Source: a virus. Taken from it: 27,469 nt of DNA. The DNA is taken from positions 1 to 27,469 of the IMG/VR virus record IMGVR_UViG_3300032229_000335. One strand, 5' to 3'. The translations under genes and the position numbers were made by a program. The notes below the pieces were generated by a model that saw only the letters and a list, made by a program, of their open reading frames with translations, had not been told where the DNA came from and did no database searches. The first letter of the stretch is position 1. Every line of letters starts with the position of its first letter. Shown here one piece after another: positions 1,629 to 25,974 of this stretch.

Positions 1629-3248
1629 ATGCCCCGCGTCTTCTCCTACGACCGCGTCAGCTCAGGCCAGCAGCTGCAGGGCGGCGGGCTCCGCCGGCAG
1701 GGCGACGCCGCTGCAGCATGGGCCGCCGCTCACGGGATCACGCTGGATCCGCTCACCCTCCGTGATGGCGGCCGTTCCGCATTCCACGGCCACAACCTGA
1801 CCCGCGGCGCTCTCGGCCGGTTCCTGGAGCTGGCCCAGGCGGGGGAGCTGGGGGATGGGCCAATCCTGCTAGTGGAGGCCATCGATCGGCTCAGCAGACA
1901 GGAGCCACTGGACGCAATTGAGGTGATCCTCGGCGGCCTAGTCGGCTCCGGCGTGCGGATCATCACGCTGGAGGACGGCTCGGAATACAGCCGGGAGGCG
2001 ATCCGCTCCGACCCCGCCCGGCTGTTGGTGCTGGTGGTGCGGATCCAGGCGGCGCACGATTACTCCGCCCGCCTGTCGCGTCGCTCGACTGCGGCCTGGC
2101 GGCAAGCGGAGGGCGACCTAGCGGCAGGCAGGCTCCGGCGACCCGCCACCCTCCGCCCCAGGTGGCTCGATTGGGATGGGGAGCGGTTCACATTCAACGC
2201 CCACGCCGAGGCAATCCGCCAGATGGTGGCGATGGTTGGCGATCGGGGATTGTTCGCTGTCGCCCGTGACCTGAACGACCTGGGCCTATTCACCGCCACT
2301 GGCCGGCGGTGGACTGCTGCTGGGGTCCGCCAGGCGGTGGGCCATCCGGCGATCTGGGGCGCCGCTCGGATCCGTGGCGAGCTGCTGCCGGGCGCATTCC
2401 CGCCGATCATGGATCGCGCCGAATGGGAAGCGCTGCTGCTGCGGATCCAGGCGCGGGGCTGGCAGGCCAGCCGGGGGCGGAATGGCCAGACACAATGGAT
2501 CGGGCAGGGCATCACTCGCTGCTGCTGCGGCGCTGCGGCGACCACGAAGGCGACGCGCTCGGCCGGGCGGATGATTCGTTATCTCCTGTGCTCCGATCGT
2601 GGGGCCCGGTTCAGCTGCCATCGGCCAGCGCTGCGGCTGGAGGTGGCGACCGCTCACCTGTTGATTCGCCTCCAGCCGGCGCAACTGGCGGAGCTGATCG
2701 GACGGGGCGGGGATCGATCATCAGCCATTGGTGCGGCGGTGGCCCGCCGCCAGGAGCTGGAGAGCGCCGCCACGGCAGCAGCAGCGGCGAGGGGCCACAC
2801 GGCGGCGGCAGTGAAGTTGGCGGCCAGATCAGGCGCGGGGCTGGCGTTGCTGATTGAGGCGCATCAGGAGGCGGAGGCAGAAGCGGCGCAGGCTGAGCAG
2901 GCGCTGGCCCAGGCCTCGGCTGAGCTGCAGCAGTTGCAGGCGTCGCCGCAGCTGGAGGCGCTGGCGCCGGAGGTGGCGGCCATGCTGAACACGTTCGCGA
3001 TCGGTAGCGCGACGGCGCCACAGCGGCAGGCGGTGAACCGTGGCCTGAGCCGGCTGGGGCTCAGGATCACGATCGATGGCGAGCGCTCAGCGATGGCGCT
3101 GGCGCTCAGCGATGGCGCTCCAGAGTGGCAGCCGGTGCGGCGGGAGCAGCTGGAGGCTCTGGCGCATGGCCTCACCGGCTCCCGGACGACGGCGGAACCG
3201 GACGGGCTGGTGATTGTGGGGGCAGAGGGGGCGATGGTGTGGCTGTAG
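1629..3248 (+). CDS. int: Large serine recombinase (phage integrase)
   Basis: This 539-residue protein would catalyse attP x attB integration by serine-mediated double-strand cleavage. The N-terminal resolvase domain (about 1-155) has YDRVSSGQQ with catalytic Ser11 after Arg9, DRLSRQ at 86-91, and YSARLSRRS at about 145-153 before the long E helix. A recombinase domain follows (about 190-275: AIRQMVAMV, GRRWTAAGVRQAV, HPAIWGAARI, PPIMDRAEWEALL). A zinc ribbon follows with Cys298-300, Cys321 and Cys330. Residues about 355-445 are Ala/Glu-rich coiled coil, as used for synapsis control in this family. Length is normal for a large serine integrase. The start MPRVFSYDRVS places the catalytic motif at the expected distance. 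All key catalytic residues are present, so it is probably active. It marks the element as temperate. A directionality factor is not obvious; the small RHH or HTH proteins nearby are candidates. Confidence 0.93.
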   Translation: MPRVFSYDRVSSGQQLQGGGLRRQGDAAAAWAAAHGITLDPLTLRDGGRSAFHGHNLTRGALGRFLELAQAGELGDGPILLVEAIDRLSRQEPLDAIEVILGGLVGSGVRIITLEDGSEYSREAIRSDPARLLVLVVRIQAAHDYSARLSRRSTAAWRQAEGDLAAGRLRRPATLRPRWLDWDGERFTFNAHAEAIRQMVAMVGDRGLFAVARDLNDLGLFTATGRRWTAAGVRQAVGHPAIWGAARIRGELLPGAFPPIMDRAEWEALLLRIQARGWQASRGRNGQTQWIGQGITRCCCGAAATTKATRSAGRMIRYLLCSDRGARFSCHRPALRLEVATAHLLIRLQPAQLAELIGRGGDRSSAIGAAVARRQELESAATAAAAARGHTAAAVKLAARSGAGLALLIEAHQEAEAEAAQAEQALAQASAELQQLQASPQLEALAPEVAAMLNTFAIGSATAPQRQAVNRGLSRLGLRITIDGERSAMALALSDGAPEWQPVRREQLEALAHGLTGSRTTAEPDGLVIVGAEGAMVWL

Positions 3249-3270
3249 TGGCCTGGGCGGCCAGCTCTAC

Positions 3271-3316
3271 GGCCGCAGATGTGCGGCACTACCGCTAATA
3301 GGCGCATCTGCAGGCC
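3271..3316. repeat. 46-bp inverted repeat behind the integrase (candidate attP or operator)
   Basis: Arms GCAGATGTGC (3275-3284) and GCGCATCTGC (3302-3311) pair over ten positions with one G-T wobble around a 17-base loop. Flanking GGCC on each side (3271-3274 and 3313-3316, with one extra base on the right) extends the symmetry. It starts 22 bases after the integrase stop. Serine-integrase attP sites are about 50 bp, imperfectly palindromic and usually next to int, so size and place fit. No T-run follows, so it is a poor intrinsic terminator. It could instead be an operator for the HTH gene that begins just to its right. Confidence 0.45.
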
Positions 3317-3346
3317 ATGATGCGCAGGCACACGGAACCACGGGCC

Positions 3347-3991
3347 ATGGCCGCCAACGATCACGAGTTGCTCAATCGCCTGGCGGTGGCGCGGGCACGG
3401 TTCGGACGGTTCCTCCGCACCTGGCGGGCCGTCAATAATTGGAGCAGCCATACGACAGCCGAATGGGCCACGGTTCGGCCTGATCTGCTGCCGTTCAAAA
3501 TTACATCGCCGACTTGGGTTACGTTTGAAAATGACCAGAAACCTAGCCCGTATCCCGAGACGTTCATTGCATTGGAACTGCTGAATCGTGCGGTGGCAGC
3601 TGAGGATTATTCAGGTGTGACAAAACGGGCGCTGTTGGATCGGCTGCAGGGGAGCCGCCCGGTGCGCCATGACGACGGGGCGCTGTGGACAGCGGCGGAT
3701 TTTTTTGAATGCTTCCTCGGTGGGCTGGAGCCCCCGGCTGAGTTTGCCGTACCCCGGTTTGATGGCGCCGCAGCGGGTGCGGCCTGGCGGGAGGCGTTCG
3801 CTGCGGCAACGCGCGCGAGGGCCACCACCGGTGGCGCCATGGGGGCATTACTGGCGATGGCCAGGGCGACGGGGCTGGACCAGGAGCTGGCGGGCGCGGC
3901 GGCTGAGGTGGCCCATGGGGCGCCGATGCCTGATGAGGCGACAGCGGCGGCGCTGGGGGCAGCGCTCACGAATTGGAGCGCTGCAGGTTGA
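3347..3991 (+). CDS. Probable XRE-like helix-turn-helix regulator with alanine-rich C-terminus
   Basis: About 214 residues from the preferred ATG at 3347; an ATG at 3317 would add ten residues but begins immediately after the inverted repeat. Residues about 20-85 (FGRFLRTWRAVNNWSS, HTTAEWA, TWVTFENDQKPSPYPETFIA, LELLNRAV) resemble a degenerate XRE/Cro-CI domain: two N-terminal helices, a turn, then a serine/threonine recognition region and the P-x-P-E-x-F segment. The rest is acidic and alanine-rich with no recognised motif. The stretch 3430-3560 is more AT-rich than its surroundings. Lying between the integrase and the recombination operon, it could be a lysogeny or early-gene regulator. The HTH call is by pattern only; a hypothetical protein of other function is possible. 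Confidence 0.6.
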   Translation: MAANDHELLNRLAVARARFGRFLRTWRAVNNWSSHTTAEWATVRPDLLPFKITSPTWVTFENDQKPSPYPETFIALELLNRAVAAEDYSGVTKRALLDRLQGSRPVRHDDGALWTAADFFECFLGGLEPPAEFAVPRFDGAAAGAAWREAFAAATRARATTGGAMGALLAMARATGLDQELAGAAAEVAHGAPMPDEATAAALGAALTNWSAAG

Positions 3992-4056: not shown

Positions 4057-4971
4057 ATGGCAGAACCGCTCACACGGGCGAATTATCACAGCCATCCGGC
4101 GGTGAGTTCGTCCCAGCCAAAACGCGCCATTACTGGCACCGGCCGCGATTATTGGGCGCATTACGTCAACCCTGATCGAGCGCCATTTGTGCCGTCTGAG
4201 GTTATGCGTCAGGGGTCACTCTGCGACGTATTGATCAGCACTCCCGGCGACTTCCTGGATCTGTATATCGTCATGCCGGACGACGCGCCACGGCGGCCGA
4301 CCGCAAAGCAATTGTTGGATGGCCGCGATAGCAGAGCCGGCACAAAAGCGCATGACGGCTATCTCGATGCTCAGGATCGGGAGACGTGGTGGCAGGCATT
4401 CGAGATGAGGGCCAGCGGTCGGGAGATCATCTCCCGCGGCTGGCATGACCGGGCCTCCACGATCCGCGACACGCTGGTTGATGACCCAATCATTGGGCCG
4501 ATCCTGAGGGATGCAATCGCCAGCAGCCAGCAACCTCACCTATGGGTGGATGATGCTGGCCAGCAGCACCGTTACCTCCCCGACCTAGAGACTGCTTCGG
4601 GTGGGTTGTGGGACCTGAAGAAAGCCCGCTCCGCCAACCCCAGGCTGGCCGCTGCTCAGGCGTGGCAATTGGCCTATGACGTGCAATTGGCGCATTATTC
4701 CCTCGGCTATGAGGACCGCCACGGCAGCACGCCAACCCAGCAGGGCCTGATCACCTACGAATGGGATGCGCCCCACAATTGCTGCCTGATGGTGGCGACG
4801 CCTGAGCTAATCCAGGCGGGGCAGCAGCGCAGACAGGAGGCGCTGGAGCGCATTGCCCGCTGGGAGGCTGAGCAACATTGGCCCAGCTATGGCGAGGCTC
4901 GCTGGGATGAACCGGCATGGCGGAAATCTGGGGGCGAGGCTCCCGCAATTACTGAAATTGTTCTGTTCTGA
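4057..4971 (+). CDS. RecE-like PD-(D/E)XK exonuclease
   Basis: 304 residues. It fits the PDDEXK-like exodeoxyribonuclease VIII (DUF3799) family: a 5'-3' double-strand DNA exonuclease that makes 3' single strands for a partner annealing protein. Visible motifs: an N-terminal RQGSLCDVLISTP block, equivalent to the usual G-x-x-x-H element but with Asp57 where His is common; YLPDLE with Asp176; WDLKKA with Asp186 and Lys188; then WQLAYDVQLAHYSLGYED with Gln210 and Tyr214, the conserved Q-x-x-x-Y helix of this nuclease group. The metal and lysine residues look intact. The start at 4057 has only a weak ribosome site. The gene ends in an A/TGA overlap with the RecT-like gene at 4971, as expected for an exonuclease/annealase pair acting together on phage DNA ends. 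Confidence 0.82.
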   Translation: MAEPLTRANYHSHPAVSSSQPKRAITGTGRDYWAHYVNPDRAPFVPSEVMRQGSLCDVLISTPGDFLDLYIVMPDDAPRRPTAKQLLDGRDSRAGTKAHDGYLDAQDRETWWQAFEMRASGREIISRGWHDRASTIRDTLVDDPIIGPILRDAIASSQQPHLWVDDAGQQHRYLPDLETASGGLWDLKKARSANPRLAAAQAWQLAYDVQLAHYSLGYEDRHGSTPTQQGLITYEWDAPHNCCLMVATPELIQAGQQRRQEALERIARWEAEQHWPSYGEARWDEPAWRKSGGEAPAITEIVLF

Positions 4972-5840
4972 TGACTGATCCAACCTCACAACTCGCGACC
5001 ACTGACGATGCGATCCGGGTATTCTCTGGGATCGCCGCGTTTGACGCCGCGCAGAAAATGGCGAAAGCCCTCAGCAGCTCGACACTAGTGCCAGCCGCAT
5101 ACCAGGGCCAGTCAGGGCTAGCCAACTCACTGATTGCGTTGGAGATGGCTGGCCGGATGGGCCTCTCTCCGCTCATCGTGATGCAGAACCTGCATATCAT
5201 CCACGGCCGCCCCAGCTGGAGCAGTCAGTTTCTCATTGCCACGGTAAACGCCTGCGGTCGGTTTTCCCCGCTGCGATTCAGCTTTGACCGGGAAGATAAT
5301 CCGACATCATGCTATGCCCACGCTACTGACAAGCAGTCGGGTGAGCTATTGAAAGGGCCAGCCATCACGATGGCGATGGCGCAGGCGGAGGGGTGGAGTA
5401 CGAAGTCTGGATCCAAATGGAAGACCATGCCCGAGCTGATGTTGCGCTATCGCGCCGCTGCATTCTGGGTGAGGCTGTACTGCCCAGAGATCAGCCTGGG
5501 GCTCGTCACTCAGGAGGAAGCGGTTGATATCGAGGCCGTCACCATCTCCGAGGTGCCGGCACCTGCCCCGGCGGCGGTGGCCGCTATCGCTCCAGAGCCT
5601 GAGCCTGAGCTGCCGGCCGAAGTGGTGGAGGTGGCCGAGGTGGTGGCCCCGGTCGAGCCTGAGCCCGCTGACCCACTGGCGCGGGGGTTGGAGTCGATCG
5701 CCACCACCACCACCACAGAGGGCCTGGACCGCGCCGCTCAGCGTGTTGCCCAGCTGTTGGGCGATGGCGCCATCAATAAGGCCGGCGCAGCTGAGCTGCG
5801 GGCTGCAATCCGTGCTCGGGCAGCGGAGATTAAGGAATGA
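4971..5840 (+). CDS. recT: RecT-like single-strand annealing protein
   Basis: 289 residues. It anneals complementary single strands made by the neighbouring exonuclease and supports recombination-dependent replication and repair. The family core covers about residues 20-190: LANSLIALEMAGRMGLSPL, VMQNLHIIHGRPSWSSQFLI, CGRFSPLRF, then the signature W-K-T-M-P-E-L-M-L-R-Y-R-A-A-A-F (150-165) and CPEISLGLVTQEEA. Residues about 190-240 are a Pro/Glu/Val/Ala-rich linker (PEPEPELPAEVVEVAEVV), followed by a small helical C-terminal part that may be a protein-interaction module. The start overlaps the exonuclease stop and the end overlaps the next gene by ATGA, so translation is coupled. Confidence 0.9.
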   Translation: MTDPTSQLATTDDAIRVFSGIAAFDAAQKMAKALSSSTLVPAAYQGQSGLANSLIALEMAGRMGLSPLIVMQNLHIIHGRPSWSSQFLIATVNACGRFSPLRFSFDREDNPTSCYAHATDKQSGELLKGPAITMAMAQAEGWSTKSGSKWKTMPELMLRYRAAAFWVRLYCPEISLGLVTQEEAVDIEAVTISEVPAPAPAAVAAIAPEPEPELPAEVVEVAEVVAPVEPEPADPLARGLESIATTTTTEGLDRAAQRVAQLLGDGAINKAGAAELRAAIRARAAEIKE

Positions 5841-6031
5841 CCAACAAATCCTTTGGAGTCTTCATGCGAACCGATGAGTATCAACGGGTAGAGCGCTATG
5901 CCGCCCAGCGGCGGATCACGATCTCTGGGGCAGTGCGGGAGTTGATCCGCACCCACCCCGAGATCGCGATGGGCAGCGTCCTCCCATCGCTCCGGCTCAC
6001 CGCCGCACATCGAGCCAATGGCCAGGTCTGA
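5837..6031 (+). CDS. Small ribbon-helix-helix DNA-binding protein
   Basis: A 64-residue protein starting in the ATGA overlap with the RecT-like gene, preceded by TTAAGGA. The pattern SFGVFMRTDEYQRVERYA, then RRITISGAVRELIRTH, fits a ribbon-helix-helix fold: a short beta strand, helix A and helix B. RHH proteins dimerise through the strand and bind DNA with it, commonly as operon autorepressors. The C-terminus (MGSVLPSLRLTAAHRANGQV) is a short tail. Its end overlaps the sigma-factor start by 14 bases. It may regulate this operon, possibly through the palindrome near 4016, or act as an integrase accessory factor; both are inference. Confidence 0.7.
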   Translation: MTNKSFGVFMRTDEYQRVERYAAQRRITISGAVRELIRTHPEIAMGSVLPSLRLTAAHRANGQV

Positions 6032-7025
6032 TCTCCAGTGGTGGCTCAATCAGGCCGGGCGCCGGCCGTTGCTGACGCCCGCCCAGGAGATCCAGCTAGG
6101 GCATCTGGTGCGGGCTTGGCTGGATCACCCGCCACCGCCACCGCCACCCGCTGAGCGGCGGGGCCGGCGGGCCAGGGATCGAATGGTTGAATCCAACCTC
6201 CGCCTAGTCGCCAACGTGGCGCAGGGCTACAGCTCACGGGTAGCACCCTCGGCACTGCCCGACCTGATTCAGGCGGGCAACATGGGGCTGATCCGGGCGG
6301 CGGAAAAATTCGACCCGGCGCGGGGGTATCGCTTCACGACTTACGCCTACGCCTGGATCCGACAGGCGTTGATGCGACATTGCGAGAACTCAGAGCACAG
6401 CGGCATCAGGCCCCCGCAAACGCTGGCGCCACAGGCGGCCCGGCTGAGGCGCACGACGGCCGACATGACGGCGGAGCTGGGCCGTGCGCCAACGCGGGAT
6501 GAACTGGCGGAGCGGCTGCGGATTGATCCGGCAGAGCTGGATCTGATCCAGTCGAGGGGGCGTCCGGTTGCAAGCCTGGATCAATTGGTGGGCGATGACG
6601 GCGGCGGCACCACGCTGGGTGATCTTGTCGCCGTTGCAGCGCCGGGGGAGGATGACCCATCGCCGGAGCTGAAGCGGTTGCGGGCGGTGCTGGCGGAACT
6701 GCCGGCGCAACAGCGGGAGCTGCTGGAGCTGCGTTGGGGGGTGGCGGGTGAGCCGGTAGCACCGGGGGAGATCGCCGCGCTGTTGGGCCTGACCCAGGTG
6801 GAGGCGATCAGCCGGCTGGCTCGGGCAGTGCTGGAGGTGCGGATCCGGCTGGGGGGCGTAGCGCAGGGGGAGCTGCCGCTGGTGGAACGCTTCGAGGTGG
6901 TGGCGGCGCCGCCTCTGCTGGAGGTGCCCACCGTTGAGCTGAACCGCCCCCGCTCACGAGCGATTGCGCCACCACGAGAGACGGCGGAACCACGGGAGGC
7001 GACGGCCCAGCTGGCGTTGCTGTAG
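6018..7025 (+). CDS. Phage-encoded sigma-70 family RNA polymerase sigma factor
   Basis: 335 residues with a near-complete group-2-like sigma architecture. Region 1.2: DLQWWLNQAGRRPLLTPAQE (5-24). A polyproline stretch (about 38-44) sits where region 1.2 joins region 2. Region 2: NLRLVANVAQGY, LIQAGNMGLIRAAEKFDP, GYRFTTYAYAWIRQALMRH (60-121), with core-binding and -10 recognition helices. Region 3: about 140-190 (TAELGRAPTRDELAERL). Region 4: about 218-276 (LPAQQRELLELRWGV, GEIAALLGLTQVEAISRLARAV), the -35 recognition HTH. A roughly 55-residue Pro/Arg-rich tail has no homology I recognise. The W-L-x-x-A-G-R-x-P-L-L-T start is typical of cyanobacterial sigma factors. It probably redirects host polymerase to phage promoters. 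Promoter targets are not identifiable here; the late operon's promoter is likely off the right edge. Confidence 0.9.
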   Translation: MARSDLQWWLNQAGRRPLLTPAQEIQLGHLVRAWLDHPPPPPPPAERRGRRARDRMVESNLRLVANVAQGYSSRVAPSALPDLIQAGNMGLIRAAEKFDPARGYRFTTYAYAWIRQALMRHCENSEHSGIRPPQTLAPQAARLRRTTADMTAELGRAPTRDELAERLRIDPAELDLIQSRGRPVASLDQLVGDDGGGTTLGDLVAVAAPGEDDPSPELKRLRAVLAELPAQQRELLELRWGVAGEPVAPGEIAALLGLTQVEAISRLARAVLEVRIRLGGVAQGELPLVERFEVVAAPPLLEVPTVELNRPRSRAIAPPRETAEPREATAQLALL

Positions 7026-7445: not shown

Positions 7446-8204
7446 ATGCGCAAAACCTTTCAGGGTGTCTGCAGTGGCTGCGGCATCACCTATATCAGCG
7501 GCTCGCAATCCAGCACGTGGTGCTCTCAGCGGTGCTCAAAGCGGGCGTATTGGCATCGTCGTCGGGCGCGGGAGCTGCGGCCGATGCAACTCCAACTGAT
7601 GCCAGCAGCCAGCAACGGCTTGGAGGTGCGGGCCTGGCAGGGCACACCGATCCAGCGGCGGGCGGCTGATGGCTACGTGAACGCCACGGCGATGGCCAAG
7701 GCAAACGGTAAGCACCTGCCTCACTACATGGCCAACGGGCGGACCGTTGAGTACCTGACAGCGCTTTCGGGGTCAGTCGGAATTCCGACGGACCAACTGG
7801 CAACATCCATCACCACCGGCACCAACGACCAACGCGGCACCTGGATCCATCCCCGCCTTGCCGTTGACCTCGCCCGCTGGATCAGCCCGGCCTTTGCCGT
7901 GTGGATGGATGGCTGGTTCCTGGAAGCAACCCAACGGCCAACACCGGTAGCGCTTCAGCCGGCAGTTGTGGATCCACTGAAATACGCAGAGACGTTGCTG
8001 TTCACAGTGAACCTCTATGAGAACAACCATTGCACCGCCGAAAGTCTACGCCATGAGATTATTTATCAGGCGCAAACAATTGGCGATTACTACACCAAGC
8101 GGTTAAGCGGTGCTCTCCCGCCGATGCCAGTGGTGTCATTGCGTGGCGCCGCTGACCAGATTGAACGGATCAGCGGCCGCCGCCGCCGGCAGGGGGTTTG
8201 CTGA
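7446..8204 (+). CDS. KilA-N domain protein with N-terminal zinc finger
   Basis: 252 residues. The N-terminus carries C9-x2-C12-x13-C26-x3-C30, a small zinc ribbon, followed by a basic stretch (HRRRARELR). Residues about 63-160 match the KilA-N DNA-binding domain of phages and large DNA viruses: GTPIQRRAADGYVNATAMAK, NGKHLPHYMANG, EYLTAL, GTWIHPRLAVDLARWISPAF, VWMDGWFLE. The C-terminal 90 residues have no recognised domain but include a helical segment (AESLRHEIIYQAQTIGDYY). KilA-N proteins are usually antirepressor-like or toxic regulators in temperate phages. It is the last rightward gene, separated from the late operon by hairpins. GGATTAAATC precedes the ATG, a weak ribosome site. Exact role unknown. 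Confidence 0.85.
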   Translation: MRKTFQGVCSGCGITYISGSQSSTWCSQRCSKRAYWHRRRARELRPMQLQLMPAASNGLEVRAWQGTPIQRRAADGYVNATAMAKANGKHLPHYMANGRTVEYLTALSGSVGIPTDQLATSITTGTNDQRGTWIHPRLAVDLARWISPAFAVWMDGWFLEATQRPTPVALQPAVVDPLKYAETLLFTVNLYENNHCTAESLRHEIIYQAQTIGDYYTKRLSGALPPMPVVSLRGAADQIERISGRRRRQGVC

Positions 8205-8380: not shown

Positions 8381-9049
8381 TCACGGCTTCGGGCACGACC
8401 CCAGCTTCCAATCGACGTACAGACCCCTCGGATCCGTCGCCCGCAGCCACGTCATCAGCCTGCGATAGTCGCCCTCACCCGATAGGCCGATGCAGCCGGC
8501 GGTGCCGGGGCTGCCGGCTCGGGCGTTGGAATCGATGTGGACCTCGATATTCCCCCGCTCCGTCCGGCCGGGGCCGACGAACGCCAGAGGGATTGACACC
8601 GGACCCAGGCCAGGCCCCCAGCTGCCCGAGTAGTCATCCCGCACCCCCGTCGCCCATGCCGCATCCCCGACGCGCCAAAGCCCCTCTGGCAACGGCTCCA
8701 GGCTGCCGGCTTTGCTCGCACTTGCGAGCCTGAACGCCTGCCGCCCAGGGGCGCCGCTGACCACCTCCAGGTGGTCGATCTCGACACCGCCGCGCCAGTA
8801 CCCCAGCCACAGCACCCGCAGCCCATCGGCGGTCGTGCGGCTCGTGGCGGTGAGCCGTAGCCAGCTACCGGGGTCCGCTTGTTTGCCGGCCTGGCTCCAG
8901 GTCTCAAACCACGGCCGATCACGCCTCATCGCCACCTCATATCCCTTCAGCCTGATGTCAGCCTCCAGCAGGGGGATTGCTGCCCGTTGGTGCGGCAGAT
9001 CCCGCCAGTAGCGAAACAGCTGCTCCAGCGTGATCGGTGCGTTGTTCAT
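8381..9049 (-). CDS. L,D-transpeptidase (YkuD)-like murein protein, probable lysis enzyme
   Basis: 222 residues. The C-terminal half has VHIDSNARAGSPGTAGCIGL with His171 and Cys186 spaced as in the H...(S/T)-x-G-C-I catalytic signature of YkuD-fold L,D-transpeptidases. The N-terminus (ITLEQLFRYWRDLPHQRAAI) resembles the short helical module often found at the start of cyanobacterial and cyanophage lysis proteins. No signal peptide or membrane segment is seen, so export would need a holin. It is the last gene of the late operon, directly after two small membrane proteins, the classic endolysin place. Fold and active-site call rest on the motif. Whether it cuts or re-links murein cannot be told from sequence; the hydrolase role is inferred from location. 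Starts 2 bases after the preceding stop. Confidence 0.7.
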   Translation of the reverse strand: MNNAPITLEQLFRYWRDLPHQRAAIPLLEADIRLKGYEVAMRRDRPWFETWSQAGKQADPGSWLRLTATSRTTADGLRVLWLGYWRGGVEIDHLEVVSGAPGRQAFRLASASKAGSLEPLPEGLWRVGDAAWATGVRDDYSGSWGPGLGPVSIPLAFVGPGRTERGNIEVHIDSNARAGSPGTAGCIGLSGEGDYRRLMTWLRATDPRGLYVDWKLGSCPKP

Positions 9050-23922: not shown

Positions 23923-25974
23923 TCAGGTGCCGCTAGAGCGGTAGATGAAGCGATAATCGGTAACTGCGCAGCCAAAGTCGAAGCGGCTGAGCAGCGTTAC
24001 GCCATCAGGATCACGCTCGGGCACGTTCGTGATGCTCGGGCCGGGCTCATCTGCCAGGTAGCCATAGACCAAGCCATCGGTCTGGCCGGTAGCAGCGGCG
24101 TACCACTGAGTGGCGGAGCCGTCCAAGCGGGGCTCCACTATCAGCTGCATTGCACCCGCGTATGGGTTGGGGCCGGCAGCGCCGGTCAGCGCAGCCGGGG
24201 CGTAACCGTTCGGATACAGGAACTGCTGAGCCGTGCCCTCCAGGTCGCTGGGAACGATCAGGTAGTTAGGCACCAAATTGATTGCAACCCCGCTGATGTC
24301 GGTTTGTTTGCGCATGGCCTTCTTGGCTGCATTGACCCCAGCCACGCCAATAGCGCCGGTGCCGGTGTTGTTATGGCCAGCGGCAAAAAGCGCCAATCCA
24401 TCAACAGAGGTGGTGGCATTGCCGCTGATCAGTGCCCACACCAGATTGGACTCCAGCCGGCGGAAGCCGCGTCCCATGTAATTAGGGATGCGATTTAGGA
24501 AGCTCAGATCATCGTTGATGATCATCTGACGCGAGAAGAGAATTTTCTTCGCGTAGGTGGTGAGCTTCCAGGTGGCCGATGCTTCCTTGAGTGTGGCTTG
24601 GGTGTATTCACCTCCCTCAAGAAGTTGACTGGGGAGCATATCGGCAGCCATGATTACCCGCGTTGCGGACTTAAAGTCCGGCAGGTTCTGCTGGGATGAA
24701 ATCGCCTTCCAGGTGTGGGGCTCCTCCTCGTAAGCGGCCTGAAGGGTTTTGTTGGCCACATTGCTCAGCAGCAACGGAATGTCGCTGGTGCTGTGCATGG
24801 CGAACGAAATCAGATCGTTCCGGCTGCGCCCTCGGGGATTGAAACCGCGCGATTCCGCATACGTGCGGATCATGTCCATCATCGACCAACCGCGATAGTC
24901 AGCGGCCAGCGCGCGGTCTTCATCGCTGAATTTCATCCCCGGCGACGCCTTGGCCAGCACCGCACAACCGAGGGCCTTCACCAAGGTGTCGCCAGCGTCA
25001 CGGGTAACACTGACCTGCGCAGGGTGGCCGGCGGTGGTGGTGGTGAGCGTGGCGGCGTGGGCCCTCACGATCTCCACAGCGGCTTGAGCGAACGGCAGGC
25101 CGCCATCCACCAGGGCCTGGACACGATCAGCCGGCAGGCCAGCTTCAGCGGCACAGCGGCGGATCTGCGTCTCTCGCAGCAGGGCGGCGGCATCAAGGCG
25201 CTCAGGCTCGGGAGCGCTAGCAGCAACGGCAACAGGCGCAACGGGCGCAGCGGTCACCTCAGGAGTTGGAGTGGTGGCCGGGGGCGCCCCGGCCTGTGCC
25301 TGGTCAGTCATGGATTCATTCTCAGCAGGGGGGAGGATTTCTGCTCCTGCCGTCAACCTACCGACCGCACTCCATACCCTCAGCTCATCAGGAATACCGC
25401 TAAATCGTCCATTTGGCATTGGCGGCACACTGGCCCGCACATCCGCCGGAGCCGTCACCTCGTCCGCCAGGCCAACCGCTACAGCGGCCTCAGCGGTGAA
25501 CCACGTCCCGGCGCCGCTGTTGTTGTCCATCCATTGGGTAACCAGCTCAGGCGATTGGCCCGACCGCTTGGCGTAGGTGGCTCGGTAGCTCTCGGAATAG
25601 GTGTCGAGCATGTCCGCTCGGCTGCGCATCGCCGCCGCGTCACCCTGGGCGCCACCCCAGCAGTTGTGGACCATCATTAGGGCATTACTGGGCATGACAA
25701 TCTGGTCGCCCGCCATTGCAATCATTGATCCGGCCGACGCCGCCACGCCATCAATGACGACGGTTTTTTGCCCCTGATACCGGGCCAACATGCCGTGAAT
25801 TGCAACCCCGGCACCAGCATCCCCGCCATAGCTGAAAACGTTGACCGTCAGGTCACCGCTCAAGCCATCAAGCGCTGTTGCTACATCTTCGGCAAGAATA
25901 TCAATCCCAACATCCCCATAAAGCCTTAGCGACTGCTTCCCAGCAGCGGCTAATACTTTCACGCCCAGCATCAT
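23923..25974 (-). CDS. ClpP-like prohead protease fused to major capsid protein
   Basis: 683 residues. The N-terminal domain (about 1-170) is a ClpP-type serine protease: VNVFSYGGDAGAGVAIHGML, GVAASAGSMIAMAGD with Ser80, ALMMVHNCWGG with His103, WFTAEAAVAVGLADEV; the third catalytic residue is not clear. A Pro/Ala-rich linker and helical delta/scaffold-like segment (about 215-310) follows. The C-terminal 340 residues are an HK97-fold capsid subunit (FAMHSTSDIPLLLSNVANKT, MLPSQLLEGGEYTQATLKEA, GLALFAAGHNNTGT, YRFIYRSSGT). In one chain, the protease would cleave itself and the scaffold from the capsid part after assembly. Such fusions are known in some siphophages. Two adjacent ATGs (25974, 25971) overlap the portal stop. 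Confidence 0.9.
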   Translation of the reverse strand: MMLGVKVLAAAGKQSLRLYGDVGIDILAEDVATALDGLSGDLTVNVFSYGGDAGAGVAIHGMLARYQGQKTVVIDGVAASAGSMIAMAGDQIVMPSNALMMVHNCWGGAQGDAAAMRSRADMLDTYSESYRATYAKRSGQSPELVTQWMDNNSGAGTWFTAEAAVAVGLADEVTAPADVRASVPPMPNGRFSGIPDELRVWSAVGRLTAGAEILPPAENESMTDQAQAGAPPATTPTPEVTAAPVAPVAVAASAPEPERLDAAALLRETQIRRCAAEAGLPADRVQALVDGGLPFAQAAVEIVRAHAATLTTTTAGHPAQVSVTRDAGDTLVKALGCAVLAKASPGMKFSDEDRALAADYRGWSMMDMIRTYAESRGFNPRGRSRNDLISFAMHSTSDIPLLLSNVANKTLQAAYEEEPHTWKAISSQQNLPDFKSATRVIMAADMLPSQLLEGGEYTQATLKEASATWKLTTYAKKILFSRQMIINDDLSFLNRIPNYMGRGFRRLESNLVWALISGNATTSVDGLALFAAGHNNTGTGAIGVAGVNAAKKAMRKQTDISGVAINLVPNYLIVPSDLEGTAQQFLYPNGYAPAALTGAAGPNPYAGAMQLIVEPRLDGSATQWYAAATGQTDGLVYGYLADEPGPSITNVPERDPDGVTLLSRFDFGCAVTDYRFIYRSSGT

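Follow-up and report, generated by a model that had tools for sequence, protein, structure and literature searches.

A widespread clade of cyanophage sigma factors with a diverged region 4 and a C-terminal motif like those of sliding-clamp ligands

What is a sigma-70 factor doing at the end of a phage recombination operon, where it faces the genes for lysis and tail proteins, and which genes would it turn on? We addressed this question for IMGVR_UViG_3300032229_000335, a viral fragment of 27.5 kb, and by the window we mean this whole stretch of 27,469 nucleotides. The sigma gene, which opens with ATG and runs for 335 codons, is the final link of a chain of overlapping genes, in which the RecE-like and RecT-like genes share 1 nt, the RecT-like gene and a small ORF 4 nt, and the small ORF and the sigma gene 14 nt (Table 1). 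L024, a close relative, keeps this gene order in full, and L003 keeps it for the final pair of genes, so that the small ORF and its overlap with the sigma gene recur in both. While Pfam and PHROG bear out the RecE-like and RecT-like genes named in a preliminary description of this DNA, the ribbon-helix-helix (RHH) family that it proposed for the small ORF finds no match in either collection. Its suggestion that the sigma factor is co-expressed with the recombination genes agrees with synteny, as in upwards of 30 related uncultured contigs the gene closes the early operon and faces lysis and tail genes, on the border between early and late functions. The phage is probably temperate, as had also been assumed, because the window encodes a large serine integrase (1629-3248; Pfam, PHROG), and from its relatedness to S-LBS1 we infer a cyanobacterial host. 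Two further genes of the window deserve mention in their own right: a KilA-N gene (7446-8204) with a TTGACA-like box upstream, which lies between the sigma and lysis genes and was not found in L024 or L003, and a single ORF (23923-25974) in which a ClpP-type protease is fused to the major capsid protein.

The protein is a sigma-70 factor by several lines of evidence. The Pfam models for regions 1.2, 2 and 3 all score over their cut-offs, the region 4 model falls slightly below its own (23.7 against 24.1 bits, E=3e-5), and the PHROG sigma factor match reaches E=2e-47. The AlphaFold model resembles regions 1.2 to 4 of solved sigma factors over residues 2-280, near the end of which those structures stop. 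Region 2, responsible for core binding and -10 recognition, and region 3 are thus supported by both Pfam and fold match, and region 4 by predicted helices that align with solved sigma factors up to residue 280. As first proposed, the protein is therefore no small late sigma of the T4 type, in which gp55 has a region 2 homology domain only and the partner gp33; it has regions 1.2 to 4. The description of it as a complete sigma-70 factor holds for the presence of these regions, but not for a 'full' region 4, which lacks the standard -35 contacts. A polyproline stretch after region 1.2, taken at first for an unusual insert, turned out to be one form of a short linker, HPxPxPP(x)RRG, found across the clade. 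In region 2, alignment shows that the subclade of the window has A in place of the first W of the WW pair (AW) and M at the position that we take to be equivalent to T440 in E. coli numbering.

Table 1. Features of the sigma gene and its surroundings in the window
Feature	Position	Strand	Evidence or remark
RecE-like exonuclease (DUF3799/PDDEXK, exonuclease VIII)	4057..4971	+	Pfam, PHROG
RecT-like single-strand annealing protein	4971..5840	+	Pfam, PHROG
64-aa ORF, family not confirmed	5837..6031	+	overlaps RecT and sigma genes; conserved in L003, L024
Phage sigma-70 factor, 335 aa	6018..7025	+	Pfam, PHROG, AlphaFold model, tree
Sigma region 1.2, residues 7-34	6036..6119	+	Pfam PF00140, 22.3 bits (cut-off 22)
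Sigma region 2, residues 56-122	6183..6383	+	Pfam PF04542, E=1e-16
Sigma region 3, residues 141-205	6438..6632	+	Pfam PF04539, E=5e-12
Sigma region 4, diverged, residues 224-275	6687..6842	+	Pfam PF04545, 23.7 bits (cut-off 24.1); helices predicted
Position of -35 recognition helix, LTQVEAIS in place of (I/V)SRER(V/I)RQ	6789..6812	+	alignment
C-terminal tail, residues 281-335	6858..7022	+	predicted disordered, pLDDT <50
Clamp-binding-like motif QLALL, residues 331-335, extreme C-terminus	7008..7022	+	motif scans; consensus PMC11139829
Endolysin-like gene; begins the convergent, presumably late block of lysis, tail and head genes	8381..9049	-	PHROG, synteny

In the phylogenetic tree, the window protein falls into a clade made up of phage proteins only, here called clade A, which comprised 25 clusters with support 97/89 and, after later-fetched sequences had been added, 39 clusters with support 100/99. 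Host sigma factors and other phage sigma factors fall outside it, and the common descent with the sigma factor of S-LBS1, apart from host proteins, carries the same support values. Matches to host proteins reach 174-204 bits, compared to about 270-650 bits within clade A. A recent acquisition from a host, the outcome against which a phylogeny had originally been suggested, was rejected, since there is no close cellular relative and the tree sets the hosts apart. One apparent phage match, Efs 1-1-1, was discarded as an ordinary bacterial RpoD in an unverified record. Clade A is widespread, and sigma genes at this site are already known from cyanosiphoviruses: S-LBS1, S-CBS1, S-CBS3 and KBS2A all carry one here, so the gene alone is not new. 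What changes the reading of this known gene, judging from the sequences, is the diverged region 4 together with the clamp-like end of the tail.

At the -35 recognition helix, members of clade A have STRALES, TQVEAIS and similar sequences where sigma factors of hosts and of the KBS2A type have SRER(V/I)RQ, and the conserved -35 contacts of group 1 and 2 factors (SRERxRQ in region 4.2) are accordingly missing from the window protein. The positions concerned, which we take to be the -35 contacts R584, E585 and R588 in E. coli numbering, hold Q, V and I in the window protein and are substituted throughout clade A; proteins of the KBS2A/S-CBS1 type, and most of those from hosts, retain the helix residues. 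No other part of the folded protein evolves as fast as region 4.2, whose mean identity across 11 divergent lineages is only 26%, compared to 63% for region 2, and between the window and L003 36 of 63 codons have changed in meaning in region 4 versus 7 of 67 in region 2. This pattern suggests that region 4 of clade A is altered in function or is losing one. Elsewhere, P-SS2 carries two sigma genes, and its group 2 sigma factor has a diverged region 4 and no clear clamp motif, while a separate phage clade without the -35 residues (L081-L102, for example L083 9989-10909) ends in an invariant SSLIWGWG.

Beyond region 4, clade A proteins continue for typically 40 residues, compared to 13 in hosts, and two models predict this tail to be disordered. 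The preliminary description had singled out the tail as unusual for its proline and arginine content; it is indeed informative, but through its end, which resembles ligands of the bacterial sliding clamp, and not through that composition. The last six residues are AQLALL in the window protein and AQLSLL in the L003 protein, with QLSLF, QLALF, QMELF, QLSMF, QLVLPL and QLSLL recurring among clade members behind linkers too diverged to align. The published clamp-binding consensus is Q-aliphatic-x-[LM]-[FL] or a six-residue form (PMC11139829), and the sliding-clamp idea had been recorded before the wider sequence searches were made. Because clade A clusters share ancestry, the counts that follow are not fully independent. 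All 25 first clusters have the loose pattern Q[LM]x[LMF] in their tails, whereas shuffled tails give an expectation of 1.15 clusters, and the 14 host sigma factors checked all lack it. When no pattern was chosen beforehand, QL.L ranked first of all three-residue patterns, being found in 10 of 11 lineages (maximum in 500 shuffles, 7 of 11). Out of sample, 9 of the 14 clade A clusters fetched later carry the motif (0.84 expected), with forms that include QLSLFAA, QLALF, QLVLPL, QLALPL, QLSLL and QLELL, and the strict published consensus is matched in 10 of 21 lineages, with 0.77 expected. Among ORFs of at least 100 aa at 19 clade A loci, only the sigma genes terminate in the motif, and on host contigs it ends none of 134 long ORFs.

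The motif is not uniform. S-LBS1-type tails carry V or E at position 5 (QLVLV, QLVLE) and not F or L, which puts them off the strict consensus, and have a second copy directly after region 4; L277, L292 and L282 have loose versions only, and the motif is missing from half of the KBS2A-type tails. Short motifs of this kind can arise without function. Nevertheless, the motif makes it quite probable, in our judgement, that the tail of the window protein would bind a clamp. Two elaborations were dropped: a beta-hairpin formed by two motif copies, as no strands are predicted, and a C-terminal motif common to the sigma factor and phage replication proteins, as in T4, which was not found at clade A loci. 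As separate observations, the annealing protein of S-LBS1 (L229 26105-26974) contains QLPLLT at a distance of 43 residues from the C-terminal end, which may be a second clamp motif in this phage, and L242 and L241 encode two tandem sigma factors (1920-2978 and 2947-3933), of which the first lacks a clamp motif and has a canonical region 4 and the second belongs to clade A and ends in QLSLFAA, possibly a two-step cascade.

Which clamp might the tail contact? No DnaN-type clamp was found in the window, in the complete genomes of S-LBS1, S-CBS1 and S-CBS3 or in four related contigs by a search whose control was positive, so the ring would be that of the host. A gp45-type clamp was not found either, in a search that had no positive control and, for the window, covered a fragment. 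DnaE, the host replication polymerase, carries QGNLF in two picocyanobacteria, so a reader of Q-x-x-L-F is present in likely hosts.

Taken together, these data led us to a model in which the sigma factor would join the host RNA polymerase core via regions 2 and 4 and read chiefly the -10 end of promoters through region 2, the standard -35 element no longer being read. The flexible tail would dock on host DnaN through QLALL, and since clamps are loaded at replicating DNA, polymerase bearing the phage sigma factor would gather on phage DNA under replication, become active there and then transcribe the genes for lysis, tail and head proteins, which are arranged convergently. We assign a probability of roughly 0.55 to this reading, in which a late sigma factor, held on the host clamp, acts as a replication-coupled switch. 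Of the two roles first envisaged, the late programme is the likeliest, and the lysogeny-to-lysis switch lacks direct support. For clade A as a whole, we consider it an even bet that its members are clamp-tethered late factors in which region 4 serves as a polymerase contact only while the tail sits on host DnaN.

With respect to promoters, S-LBS1-type phages carry, some 40 nt ahead of the sigma gene, a conserved promoter-like block, CACCC-TATRRT-GGG (L018 11603-11689; relatives L053, L069, L045 and L028), and a similar block upstream of their primase-polymerase operon; nothing similar was found in the window. A search for late promoters revealed no motif at late genes; the window itself ends before the terminase. 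In S-LBS1 (L229), repeated TGCCTAACCT units that look iteron-like lie near the genome end (34236-34641).

Three other explanations were weighed against this model. The protein could be an ordinary group-2-like sigma factor that serves phage or host genes and competes for core polymerase, its tail having nothing to do with replication coupling. S-CBS1, S-CBS3 and KBS2A do carry factors with a canonical region 4 at the same gene position, and according to a review, Synechococcus elongatus showed altered growth and acetyl-CoA levels when RpsD4 of S-CBS3 and RpoD of S-CBS2 were expressed in it (PMC10452541). However, this explanation, which we regard as rather unlikely, does not account for a motif conserved behind an unalignable linker, for the exact clamp consensus in new lineages or for the loss of the -35 residues.

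Alternatively, the hydrophobic tail end could be a degradation signal, or bind an anti-sigma factor or a part of RNA polymerase, and so restrict the duration or location of sigma factor activity. The last three residues of many S-LBS1-type tails are EVA, AVA or VVA, which somewhat resemble protease tags. Yet the window protein ends in LALL and others in SMFT or ELL, or have the motif internally, and what they share is Q-hydrophobic-x-L, the pattern that clamps read (PMC11139829), which renders this proposal improbable. Finally, a tail that binds the host clamp so that host replication is slowed or diverted, or so that the clamp is brought to phage DNA, and that does not act on transcription directly, would suit a gene coupled to recombination genes and has parallels in the C-terminal host-clamp motifs of transposases from other mobile elements (PMC4549789), but it would be odd on a sigma factor, and the motif ends no other long ORF of the clade A loci, so that we hold it to be very doubtful.

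If the clamp-tethered late factor exists, its late genes would be fired only on replicating phage DNA, which would also explain why the sigma gene sits with recombination genes. Clamp-activated transcription has been described as peculiar to T4-related phages (PMC2988020); our model would mean that replication-coupled transcription in the manner of T4 was invented a second time, independently and with the host ring, and a single full-length sigma-70 factor working with a host clamp would show that the principle arose again. In largely openly accessible papers we found no report of a phage sigma factor with a bacterial clamp motif, and in the literature no account of late-gene timing in cyanosiphoviruses. 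For a test of the clamp-binding idea, a single peptide and a single purified clamp would be enough.

Among known systems, the closest are the sigma factor A33 of S-LBS1 and its uncultured relatives, which belong to the same clade, are about 41% identical to the window protein, likewise face lysis genes and have lost the same -35 residues. The window differs from S-LBS1 in the clean QLALL end, compared to a tail with QLVLV motifs, in having a serine instead of a tyrosine integrase, and in the absence of a divergent gene and the promoter-like block upstream of the sigma gene. RpsD4 of S-CBS1 and S-CBS3 and RpoD of KBS2A are likewise cyanosiphovirus sigma-70 factors at the early/late boundary, but they belong to other clades and keep the -35 residues; those of S-CBS1 and S-CBS3 have no motif, and that of KBS2A ends in QLPLIP. 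Transposases that bind the host clamp, such as that of IS1634, are also mobile-element proteins with C-terminal QLxLF-type motifs (PMC4549789), but they are not transcription factors. In T4, contacts with the clamp gp45 are made by the late sigma gp55 and by gp33, each through a short C-terminal motif that follows a divergent linker; gp33 mimics region 4 without reading any DNA sequence, late promoters have no -35 element, and gp55 fused to gp33 is active, with an almost complete dependence on the clamp (PMC2988020, PMC7892883). The outline is alike, with a core-bound sigma factor, a flap-binding part that does not read the -35 element and a C-terminal clamp motif. Whereas gp55 is a small protein separate from gp33, the T4 clamp is phage-made and its motif is a different one, the window encodes one full-length sigma-70 protein that would use host DnaN. 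It thus lies outside the gp55 family and would work like gp55: the parts of a clade A protein, namely core-binding regions, a region 4 that does not read the -35 element and a clamp-like tail, with the motif in two copies within the tail of S-LBS1-type proteins, correspond to those of the gp55-gp33 fusion.
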